Part shown: piece after piece, positions 13,921 to 62,503 of the stretch
Numbering within the stretch: position 1 is the first letter of the stretch
Layout of the letters: each line of letters starts with the position of its first letter
Source of the DNA: Peptoniphilus gorbachii
GTDB lineage: Bacteria; Bacillota; Clostridia; Tissierellales; Peptoniphilaceae
Direction of reading: 5' to 3'
Length of the DNA stretch: 64,000 nucleotides
NCBI RefSeq assembly: GCF_016908115.1
Contig: NZ_JAFBDH010000003.1
Coordinates: 62,001-126,000 of the forward strand
The notes under the pieces: model-generated
Databases searched by the model: none
Seen by the model: the letters and a program-made list of their open reading frames with translations, nothing else
What the model was told of the DNA's origin: nothing
Translations under genes and position numbers: made by a program

Positions 13921-14187
13921 GCCATGCACCCAATATCGAAAATTAACCTCACACGTTACCCTTACAGTTAGCTCAAATTAGGCGACCCTTGCGGCACACA
14001 AAAGATCTTACTTAGTGCTGCTTCGATCAAGATCTGACACGGTTCATAAGTTTCTGTTGCGCAGGACCCAATCATCAACACCACTTATAAGGGGCAGACT
14101 GCAAAATTAAAGTCCTCCAATGGGAATTCAGCCCTGCTGTAGCGAATTGCAGGTACAGGACATCGCTAATTTCCCGCTTAGCATGGC
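13921..14187 (-). ncRNA. ffs: Signal recognition particle RNA, large (Firmicutes) type
   Basis: 267-nt RNA with 5' GCCATGCTAAGCGGG and 3' GGGTGCATGGC, which pair to close the molecule. The Alu domain (GCTAAGCGGGAAATTAGCG, then CTGCAATTCGCTACAGCAGGG), the linker GGGTCCTGCGCAAC, and the Ffh-binding helix 8 with GTGTCAG and GAAGCAGCACTAAG are all recognisable against the Bacteria_large_SRP consensus. The apical loop is atypical: where most bacteria have the GGAA tetraloop in a C/G-closed stem, this reads TCTTGATCGA. It lies 2 bp after the CCA of tRNA-Ser and shares its promoter and terminator. Confidence 0.95.
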
Positions 14188-14189
14188 GA

Positions 14190-14279
14190 TGGCGGAGAGA
14201 GGGGGATTCGAACCCCCGATACATTTTCATGTATACTCGCTTTCCAGGCGGGCTCCTTCAGCCTCTCGGACATCTCTCC
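14190..14279 (-). tRNA. tRNA-Ser (GGA anticodon)
   Basis: Class II tRNA: acceptor GGAGAGA / TCTCTCC, anticodon loop CTGGAAA with anticodon GGA, a long variable arm, T-loop GTTCGAATC, discriminator G and genomically encoded CCA (14190-14192). The anticodon stem has one C-A mismatch at its second pair (CCCGC / GCGAG). It is transcribed from its own consensus promoter and runs straight into SRP RNA. Confidence 0.96.
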
Positions 14280-60165: not shown

Positions 60166-60867
60166 ATGCCAAAAAGAGGTAAAAAATATCAAGATAGCGC
60201 AAAGCTAGTAGATAAATCAAATTTATATGATGTAAATGAAGCTCTTGACTTAGTTACAAAAACTGCTAAGGCAAACTTTGACGAAACAGTTGAACTTGCA
60301 GTAAGACTTGGTGTTGACCCAAGACACGCTGACCAACAAGTAAGAGGTACTGTAGTACTTCCTAATGGAACAGGTAAAGAAATTAGAGTTCTTGTTCTTG
60401 CTAAGGGAGAAAAAATTAAAGAAGCCGAAGCAGCAGGAGCTGACTACGCAGGTGGAGAAGAATTAGTAGAAAAAATTCAAAACGAAAACTGGTTTGATTT
60501 TGATGTAATTATTGCAACTCCAGACATGATGGGCGTAGTTGGTAAAATCGGTAGAGTTCTTGGACCAAAGGGACTTATGCCAAACCCTAAATCAGGAACA
60601 GTTACATTTGATGTAGAACAAGCTGTAAAAGAAACTAAAGCAGGTAAAGTTGAATATAGAGTAGACAAGGCTGCAATCATTAACGTTCCAATCGGGAAAG
60701 TTTCTTTTGGAGTAGATAAACTTGCTGAAAACTTTAAGACAATTTCAGATGCTATAATAAAAGCAAAACCAGCATCTGCAAAGGGTCGTTATTTAAAATC
60801 AGTAACAGTTTCATCAACAATGGGTCCTGGAATTAGAATCAACGGACAAAAATTAACGGAAAAATAA
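60166..60867 (+). CDS. rplA: Ribosomal protein uL1
   Basis: 233 residues. It carries [31 protein letters not shown], and [13 protein letters not shown] in the L1 RNA-binding face. It is both a ribosomal protein and, in many bacteria, the translational repressor of its own mRNA. It is followed by two terminators rather than by rplJ. Confidence 0.97.
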
Positions 60868-60884
60868 AAACACCTAAGATAAAA

Positions 60885-60920
60885 AAACCCCTCAACTTCT
60901 TATGAAGCAGGGGTTTTTTT
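60885..60920 (+). terminator. First terminator after rplA
   Basis: AAACCCCT / AGGGGTTT outer stem with inner TTC/GAA pairs, then seven T. Confidence 0.92.
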
Positions 60921-60923
60921 ATT

Positions 60924-60953
60924 GGACTTAAGTTTAAACTTAAGTCCTTTTTT
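60924..60953 (+). terminator. Second terminator after rplA: perfect palindrome
   Basis: Perfect 24-bp inverted repeat with centre AAGTTTAAACTT (60924-60947) followed by six T. Symmetric, so it could also serve as a protein site or a minus-strand hairpin. Confidence 0.8.
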
Positions 60954-61018: not shown

Positions 61019-61047
61019 TTGCAATTTAAAAAATAAAAAGCTATAAT
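61019..61047 (+). promoter_or_regulatory. Promoter of the yitT-family leader
   Basis: TTGCAA (61019-61024), 17-bp spacer, TATAAT (61042-61047). The predicted transcript start is about 280 nt before the gene. Confidence 0.8.
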
Positions 61048-61053
61048 ATCAAA

Positions 61054-61330
61054 TGTTGATTTAAGTATTTTACGGTGGTTACCGAAATAAAGGTAGTTTT
61101 TATCTGATGCTAAAGTTTACGAGTTAAGAGCCTTCTATATGCCTGATGTGGTAGATAAAAAGCTAAAAAGTAACTATTACGCTCAGAGTTTTTACAAGAA
61201 AAAATCAGCAAATAATAAAGCATCAACACCACGAGATTGCAAAAGTACGAAGGGTTATCCTTACGACCGACAGCAGTCTTTTTTTGTTGGTTGGATACCC
61301 TTCTTATATTGCGAAATATTAAGGAGGTGT
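61054..61330 (+). ncRNA. Long structured leader RNA upstream of yitT-family gene, class unassigned
   Basis: About 280 nt of 5' untranslated RNA. Visible pairings: CGGTggttACCG near 61073-61084; a near-perfect 12-bp stem 61094-61105 with 61153-61165 (TAGTTTTTATCT / AGATAAAAAGCTA, one bulge) enclosing a 47-base loop region; and a long hairpin 61249-61303 (GAAGGG-TATCC / GGATA-CCCTTC) with inner ACCGACA / TGTTGGT and a seven-T loop. A short piece, GCTAAAGTTTACGAGTTAAG, recalls the 3' side of M-box RNAs, but the required GTTAGGTGAGG box is absent, so I do not assign a known riboswitch class. Confidence 0.55.
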
Positions 61331-61334
61331 TAAA

Positions 61335-61976
61335 ATGCTAAATCAAAAGCTGGCTTGGTTTAAATTAACAAGAACAGGACTAATTAATATTATTTTAGGG
61401 TCTATGATTGAGTCATTTACAATTGTAAATATCCATATTCCATCACAAATTACAGAAGGTGGAATCCTAGGCCTTGCATTATTAGCTTATAAGACCTTTG
61501 GTATAAACCCATCAATTCTAAGTCTAATAATGGACGTGATTTGTATCCTTATTGGAATAAATATTTTTGGAAAGGCATTTTTAAGAAAGACTTTATTAGC
61601 TTCTTTATTTTTCGCTATTTTCTATAAGATATTTTCCCTTATGGGTCCAATTGTTCCTAATCTTTATAGCTATCCATTTTTGGCAGCTATATTTGGAGGC
61701 ATTGGCATTGGACTAGGTTGTGGACTTGTAGTATCTCAAGGAGGAGCCTCAGGTGGAGACGACGCCTTGGCCCTTGTAGTATCAAATAAGACTAAGATAA
61801 ATATTTCTTATGCCTACTTACTAATGGACGTAATTGTCTTAGTAATGTCCTTAACTTATATTCCTCTTGCTAGAATAATTTACTCTCTAGTTACTACAAC
61901 GGTATCATCTGTTTTAGTAGGTCAATTTGAGATTAATGTTAATCCAACAGTGGAAAAAACAAATCTTTCTATTTAA
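61335..61976 (+). CDS. YitT-family membrane protein
   Basis: 213-residue integral membrane protein with five to six helices. ITEGGILGLALLAY and VSQGGASGGDDALALVVS are the typical YitT repeats, and the C-terminal DUF2179-like cytosolic domain of full-length YitT proteins is absent. AAGGAGGTG precedes the ATG. It lies between rplA and rplJ with its own promoter, leader and terminators, unusual for this ribosomal block. The transport substrate is unknown. Confidence 0.85.
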   Translation: MLNQKLAWFKLTRTGLINIILGSMIESFTIVNIHIPSQITEGGILGLALLAYKTFGINPSILSLIMDVICILIGINIFGKAFLRKTLLASLFFAIFYKIFSLMGPIVPNLYSYPFLAAIFGGIGIGLGCGLVVSQGGASGGDDALALVVSNKTKINISYAYLLMDVIVLVMSLTYIPLARIIYSLVTTTVSSVLVGQFEINVNPTVEKTNLSI

Positions 61977-62347: not shown

Positions 62348-62376
62348 TTGACAAATCTCCAAAGACTGTATATAAT
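62348..62376 (+). promoter_or_regulatory. Consensus promoter of rplJ-rplL
   Basis: TTGACA (62348-62353), 17-bp spacer, TATAAT (62371-62376): perfect consensus. Confidence 0.93.
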
Positions 62377-62383
62377 ATCAATG

Positions 62384-62490
62384 TTACTAAGCCGCAGACA
62401 GTAGGGGGCAATGCCATAAATCCTACCGAGGTTTGAAATTCGGATTTATTTGATTTTCACATCTCACGGCGGCGTGAGATTTTTTATTTT
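62384..62490 (+). promoter_or_regulatory. Ribosomal protein L10 leader with attenuator
   Basis: Recognisable L10-leader RNA: CCGCAGACAGTAGGGGGCA-type core with ATAAATCCTACCGAGG (the kink-turn and conserved arm bound by the L10-L12 complex), followed by a perfect terminator ATCTCACG / CGTGAGAT with GCGG loop and T run (62461-62486). Binding of excess L10(L12)4 promotes termination and limits rplJL expression. Confidence 0.9.
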
Positions 62491-62503
62491 TGGGGGTGAA
62501 AAA

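Follow-up and report, generated by a model that had tools for sequence, protein, structure and literature searches.

The 64,000-nucleotide stretch of Peptoniphilus gorbachii DNA that was analysed, called the window below, contains a conserved leader RNA that probably represents a new orphan riboswitch class controlling one gene, which encodes a short YitT-type membrane protein. Judged from comparison of related sequences, the best reading is a combined transcription/translation platform behind a putative orphan riboswitch domain, and a riboswitch is the most economical explanation of a covarying RNA followed by a switch-like platform. In the first-pass annotation the leader was described as structured, as belonging to no assigned class and as compatible with a ligand-responsive RNA; it is indeed unassigned, structured and conserved, and ligand sensing is a step that we infer. 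If the leader is a riboswitch, the ligand of the RNA offers a route to the YitT substrate. The riboswitch classes of human-associated anaerobes would also grow by one, and the interlocked terminator, terminator-loop helix and Shine-Dalgarno (SD) hairpin would be an addition to riboswitch designs.

The leader interval (61048-61334) lies between rplA, which ends at 60867, and a 213-aa open reading frame with a YitT_membrane match. The features of the leader are listed in Table 1. The promoter had already been noted far ahead of the gene; it is present, and its position is kept in 18 of 23 representative leaders, in which a promoter-like site has a -10 element ending 17-25 nt 5' of P1. The mean best score of these sites among the representatives was 9.5 of 12 compared to 7.6 in shuffled sequences, with scores at several individual loci no better than chance. 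From the promoter position, transcription would be expected to start near 61054. A coding role for a 64-aa open reading frame at 61139-61333 was rejected, as it had no Pfam or NCBIfam match and its ATG is missing in two leaders (L004 and L006).

Table 1 Features of the leader and its gene (window coordinates; + denotes the forward strand).
Feature	Position	Strand	Evidence
Sigma-70-type promoter TTGCAA-17-TATAAT	61019-61047	+	Read from sequence; position conserved in representatives
Aptamer-like domain	61072-61234	+	Covariance model R1 match, 150.5 bits
P1 5' strand GGUGGU, partner ACCAC 61228-61232	61074-61079	+	Both-sided changes at 4 of 6 pairs
P1a hairpin, UACC 61080-61083 / GGUA 61092-61095	61080-61095	+	96.6% of cells paired, 2 double-change pairs
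Conserved UUUUUAUCUGAUGC, of which UUUUUAUCUG is near-invariant	61097-61110	+	Alignment and folds
P2, UCUGA 61103-61107 and GC 61109-61110 with GCUCAGA 61181-61187		+	Alignment and folds
P2b 5' strand, partner 61170-61178	61112-61120	+	Sequence varies, pairing retained
P3 (61129-61133 / 61160-61164) and P4 with apical CUGAUGUG 61143-61150	61129-61164	+	P4 double changes at 5 of 6 pairs
Hexaloop UGAUGU, proposed pseudoknot partner GCAUCA 61220-61225	61144-61149	+	Complementarity in alignment rows
P5 hairpin UUUUU/AAAAA	61189-61204	+	One pair U-A to C-G in 4 of 41 rows
GCAUCA, 3' strand of proposed pseudoknot	61220-61225	+	Pairs with hexaloop (proposed)
Intrinsic terminator, AGAUUGC 61234-61240 / GCAGUCU 61273-61279, U-tract to 61285	61234-61285	+	
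b/b' helix, terminator loop 61249-61260 with 61293-61303 behind U-tract	61249-61303	+	
Anti-SD hairpin c/c', SD AAGGAGG 61321-61327	61297-61331	+	Bases in common with b'
yitT-like gene, 213 aa, PF02588, without DUF2179	61335-61976	+	Pfam E 5.2e-34

No Rfam match was obtained in the leader at the gathering cut-off, either in the whole window or in 13 leader loci including the window's own, and a permissive search with E up to 10 gave only sub-threshold matches, nearly all of them located at the double terminator that follows rplA. The Rfam search, which had been suggested with the first-pass annotation, thus leaves the leader without a family. The double terminator itself (60879-60953) consists of tandem hairpins, the second being the palindrome GGACTTAAGTTTAAACTTAAGTCC followed by a U-tract. 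The leader and yitT form a unit that interrupts the rplA-rplJ order. Before rplJ, a ribosomal protein L10 leader (RF00557, 69 bits) was identified at 62374-62495 with its own strong promoter at 62348-62376. Elsewhere in the window, a bacterial large SRP RNA (202 bits) lies beside a tRNA on the minus strand at 13922-14279.

The conserved domain is composed of P1, P1a, a long arm of P2, P2b, P3 and P4, and P5, and contains ~65 near-invariant bases. Folding of 43 leaders with the hexaloop held open gave broadly the same P2-P2b-P3-P4 arm, in which helices were thin or shifted in a few leaders; P2b in particular was present in the folds and thin in some, e.g. L120. Two alignments were scored for paired cells and for double changes. 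In A1, a sequence-only MAFFT alignment that is independent of the model's structure, 88.3% of cells were paired compared to 83.5% when shuffled and 40-52% when slid, and 17 pairs carried double changes; shuffles as high were found in 0 of 500 for four measures and 1 of 500 for the fifth. The model alignment A2, which is fitted to the model's structure, had 89.2% of cells paired and 20 double-change pairs (0/500 shuffles as high). Conservation and covariation in relatives, which had been named beforehand as a test of the leader, were both found through the model search and these alignments.

Strand swaps among the 23 representatives were added because kinship can mislead covariation counts. The representatives were chosen to share fewer than 60% of their 8-mers, and L007 was left out because its leader is cut off. 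P2b bound its own partner with -7.2 kcal/mol compared to -3.3 kcal/mol for swapped partners, and P4 with -4.2 compared to -1.7 kcal/mol, with 0 of 5000 permutations as good in either case, while support was modest for P1 (93/5000) and P3 (161/5000). The predicted helices are supported by covariation, P2b and P4 best. Folding energy was distinctive for the whole 281-nt leader (z = -2.29, 5/200 shuffles as good) and unremarkable for the 163-nt aptamer alone (z = -0.76, 37/200 shuffles as good); the proof of the predicted structure is comparative rather than energetic.

Two of the three pairings drawn at first pass differ from the conserved ones. The proposed 12-bp stem (61094-61105 with 61153-61165) had to be given up: the full complement of TTTTTATC occurs there in 1 of the 23 representatives, the window itself. 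A second pairing, CGGTggttACCG, can be drawn, but the pairs that covary are those of P1 and P1a instead. A 20-base stretch had also been likened to the 3' part of the M-box (ykoK) Mg riboswitch. This stretch belongs to the P2b arm, whose sequence varies, and lacks conservation; the resemblance is accidental, and the M-box model gave no match to the leader even at E 10.

A loop pseudoknot is probable in the domain from the complementarity of the hexaloop to GCAUC, whose five inner pairs are intact in 41 of 41 distinct rows. Both strands are invariant and therefore provide no covariation, and the pseudoknot stays a proposal. The nested alternative suggested by single-sequence folding, in which the first UGAUGC pairs with GCAUCA, was rejected, since all five inner pairs were present in just 32 of the 41 rows.

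The distribution of the leader was determined by three kinds of search. A DNA search of 101 genomes returned near-identical leaders (92-97%) in six genomes beyond the window's own. Thirteen more genomes had diverged leaders, 70-85% identical where they matched. With each species represented by one genome, a pattern scan returned 38 stretches, 31 of which were genuine; the named ones belong to Peptoniphilus, Anaerococcus, Aedoeadaptatus, Finegoldia, Urinicoccus and Neofamilia and to metagenome genomes. The other 7, together with 3 viral matches, were discarded as chance, the best model match across those ten loci having E 0.2. Candidates were chosen partly via the motifs UUUUUAUCUGAUG and CUGAUGUG. 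Neither motif was required in the search with a covariance model built from 34 leader sequences, which detected a single copy of the leader in each of 42 genomes, out of 130 for the window's family, spanning 14 of its 39 genera. Matches in the order (42 of 249 genomes) and in a class sample (6 of 391) all fell within the window's family, under stricter filters by which weak relatives could be missed. No match to the leader was obtained by blastn in plasmid and phage collections.

The only genuine pattern match outside the window's family was in Fundicoccus ignavus (Aerococcaceae), where a single leader copy is present with its yitT (L033:6305-6476). This copy was probably acquired by horizontal transfer. 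A clearly diverged RNA subclass (genus g23, loci L101-L104; 74-77 bits) has lost the first GAUGC and retains the hexaloop, GCAUC and the platform.

The gene controlled by the leader would be yitT, since a YitT open reading frame lies directly downstream in 42 of 43 leaders and the 43rd (L007) ends at a contig edge, its yitT lying on another contig together with the leader's final 46 bases. The window's protein matches the YitT family PF02588 with 117.9 bits (cut-off 24.3) as its sole domain and is missing the C-terminal DUF2179 of the long form. The classic YitT form carries DUF2179, according to an excerpt of PMC4944035. An AlphaFold model of the protein (pLDDT 86) gave an uninformative best PDB match (Z 4.6), and no sequence relative of known structure was detected (sole match E 0.47).

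Short YitT orthologues (at least 155 bits) were found in 51 genomes of the family, 42 with the RNA and 9 without. No diverged copy was recovered from the 9 RNA-less genomes with filters off (best 16.7 bits, E 0.045). No known riboswitch adjoins yitT in the RNA-less loci of the family, where the T-box at L138 is more than 2 kb away, or at 20 loci outside the family. A tree was built from 40 YitT proteins; L135, L136, L138 and further proteins that were not selected, or that the motif did not pick up, are absent from it. The 20 RNA-bearing rows fell on one side of a branch supported at 100/100. This tree suggests a single origin of the RNA, together with one YitT clade. The RNA-less L133, L134 and L139 nest inside the RNA-bearing side, which indicates that the RNA was probably lost there. 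At the RNA-less g7 loci L133:2700-2902 and L135:2800-3000, GGTAGTTTTCATG or GGTGGTTTT was seen by eye shortly after a promoter-like stretch, perhaps left over from a leader that was lost.

The expression platform following the domain was tested in the same representatives. A terminator hairpin with at least 5 U is present in 21 of 23; L115 and L118 have none and were omitted from the platform tests because they lack the U-tract. Conservation of the terminator stem is too high for the swap test to be informative (328/5000). The best-supported part is the b/b' helix, which confirms the long 3' hairpin described at first pass: own partners had a mean of -16.2 compared to -8.4 kcal/mol for those of other leaders (0/5000 permutations), and the helix reached -12 or better in 18 of 21 representatives, being weaker in L113, L116 and L120. 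The anti-SD hairpin c/c' also preferred its own partner (-9.6 compared to -7.0, 0/5000 permutations), and an SD-covering hairpin was read from the folds in 19 of 21 representatives, the exceptions being L113 and L120; the SD motifs were picked after inspection of the sequences. The first-pass annotation did not include the terminator, the proposed loop pseudoknot or the anti-SD hairpin.

Because b' pairs with both the terminator loop and the SD region, the terminator and the SD hairpin are interlocked with b/b' in a single device, and the overlapping helices together with the terminator make up a platform able, on comparative grounds, to adopt two states. The b' strand is transcribed only past the U-tract; b/b' therefore cannot prevent termination and would act in transcripts that escape it.

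An antiterminator linking the domain to the terminator was sought among 40 segment pairs, and none was convincing. Pairing of b' with the 5' U-run segment scored 5/1000, yet was no stronger than with shuffled partners, and pairing of b' with P5 scored 9/1000; two such values out of 40 pairs are about the multiple-testing expectation. This test used consensus anchors for all rows, a few of which deviate from them at a single base; the shuffle values for the target 'loop' were meaningless and are disregarded. An extended P1 was no better than its shuffles (mean -9.8 compared to -10.5) and was rejected. Base sharing was seen in two unusual members: in L120 the 3' strand of P1 overlaps the 5' strand of the terminator, and in L118, which has no terminator, the 3' strand of P1 is complementary, by eye, to the stretch just 5' of the SD. 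This sharing suggests that the folded domain means 'on'. That the search found no aptamer-terminator link would suit a leader that merely stabilises the mRNA, or one that arises incidentally from a long UTR with a terminator, in either case without regulated switching. Such a leader is highly improbable, as it would hardly account for compensatory changes across 14 of the family's genera or for the way in which the b/b' and c/c' helices interlock.

In the proposed riboswitch mechanism, the terminator would form while the domain is unoccupied and most transcription would stop. In transcripts that escape, the terminator would occupy b, so that b' would cover the SD and keep the gene off. A ligand that stabilises the domain would disfavour the terminator, allowing b to pair with b' and freeing the SD, and YitT would be made. 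The on-direction is taken from the base sharing between P1 and the off-hairpins in L120 and L118 and from the MerR-type neighbours of sister yitT genes, which are of an activator class. The YitT protein probably transports the ligand or a related compound, either out of or into the cell.

A conserved structured leader with a terminator and an SD hairpin would look alike if it were an attenuator bound by a protein or a tRNA, since such ligands leave similar traces. The window copy also lies among ribosomal protein genes, but the upstream genes differ between genomes, so that the ribosomal setting is local. Most protein-binding RNA sites need fewer than ~65 near-invariant bases, and the domain has about that number in addition to a possible loop pseudoknot. 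Neither a T-box nor another Rfam match was found in the leader, and YitT, as a membrane protein, is unlikely to regulate its own leader; a tRNA or a regulator that binds RNA could do so. A protein- or tRNA-binding attenuator is accordingly judged unlikely compared to a small-molecule riboswitch.

Gene neighbours provide leads to the riboswitch ligand. A MerR-type regulator is divergent from yitT at 4 of 5 RNA-less loci of genera g9 and g19 in the same family and, outside the family, at 3 of the 23 loci that could be read. By eye, this neighbour is missing at L138 (g19) and at 20 of the 23 readable other-family loci; six further such loci were unread, with no motif to orient them. A 19-bp spacer is present in 6 of the 7 MerR-adjacent promoters, a spacing of the kind on which MerR regulators act as activators according to PMC8113463. 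The six of those seven regulators that were scanned contain MerR and GyrI-like domains, the latter below the Pfam cut-off in L140 and L169, and GyrI-like proteins are recognised as small-molecule binders in an excerpt of PMC5684135. The occurrence of GyrI-like MerR regulators beside sister yitT genes hints at a small organic effector. It is tentatively proposed that the class may sense a small, possibly toxic organic compound, also the signal of the GyrI-like MerR regulators, and would use a three-helix relay to turn on YitT as an exporter. In this relay the terminator loop would serve as an anti-anti-SD, and a single event would govern both termination and translation.

Metal genes adjoin yitT in several lineages and nucleotide genes in two. 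A riboswitch for a divalent metal (Zn, Mn, Cd or similar), with YitT as a metal transporter or accessory, would fit the Zn/Cd-type P1B ATPase divergent from yitT in genus g7 (profile scan of L135 only), the ZIP (ZupT-like) genes adjoining yitT in L110 (with the RNA) and L137 (without it), the ZnuB-like gene preceding yitT in L153 (by eye only) and the acidic residues E41, D142, D143 and D165, which are invariant in the YitT clade. A metal ligand is nevertheless improbable: the g7 and g19 loci are without the RNA, and these neighbour occurrences were counted without statistics. ZntR and CueR have short metal-binding tails, whereas GyrI-like domains are found in the MerR regulators that neighbour sister yitT genes. 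It is very unlikely that the riboswitch binds a nucleobase, nucleoside or pyrimidine precursor. Adenosine deaminase, pyrF and pyrE genes follow yitT in L118, as does pyrF in L119, but these are two lineages only, most of 33 loci have by eye no close same-strand gene after yitT, and the pyrimidine genes may be ordinary neighbours.

YitT proteins are still listed as uncharacterised in Pfam, and the sections available of three accounts of YitT (PMC10240068, PMC10533825 and PMC4944035) name no substrate. A literature search for YitT together with riboswitch returned nothing, and neither YitT nor Peptoniphilus was found in the main texts, supplements aside, of PMC8632094, PMC7266159, PMC8040213 and PMC2864571. 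The novelty of the class holds relative to Rfam 15 and this literature search.

Among known systems, the MerR/GyrI-like regulators beside sister yitT genes are protein sensors, and RNA-bearing and MerR-bearing rows are separate in the tree. Guanidine riboswitches presumably differ from the leader in sequence and fold, and the leader, unlike them, is without an Rfam match. Guanidine riboswitches activate exporter genes, as stated in an excerpt of PMC7736828. The leader resembles them as an RNA ahead of the gene of a small membrane protein, a gene that may be switched on for the removal of a compound. With riboswitches that have a terminator or an SD-sequestering platform, the leader shares a conserved compact 5' domain, its own promoter, and a terminator and SD hairpin before the gene. 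Unlike in those riboswitches, the terminator loop of the leader captures the anti-SD arm behind the U-tract and so joins the two platforms.
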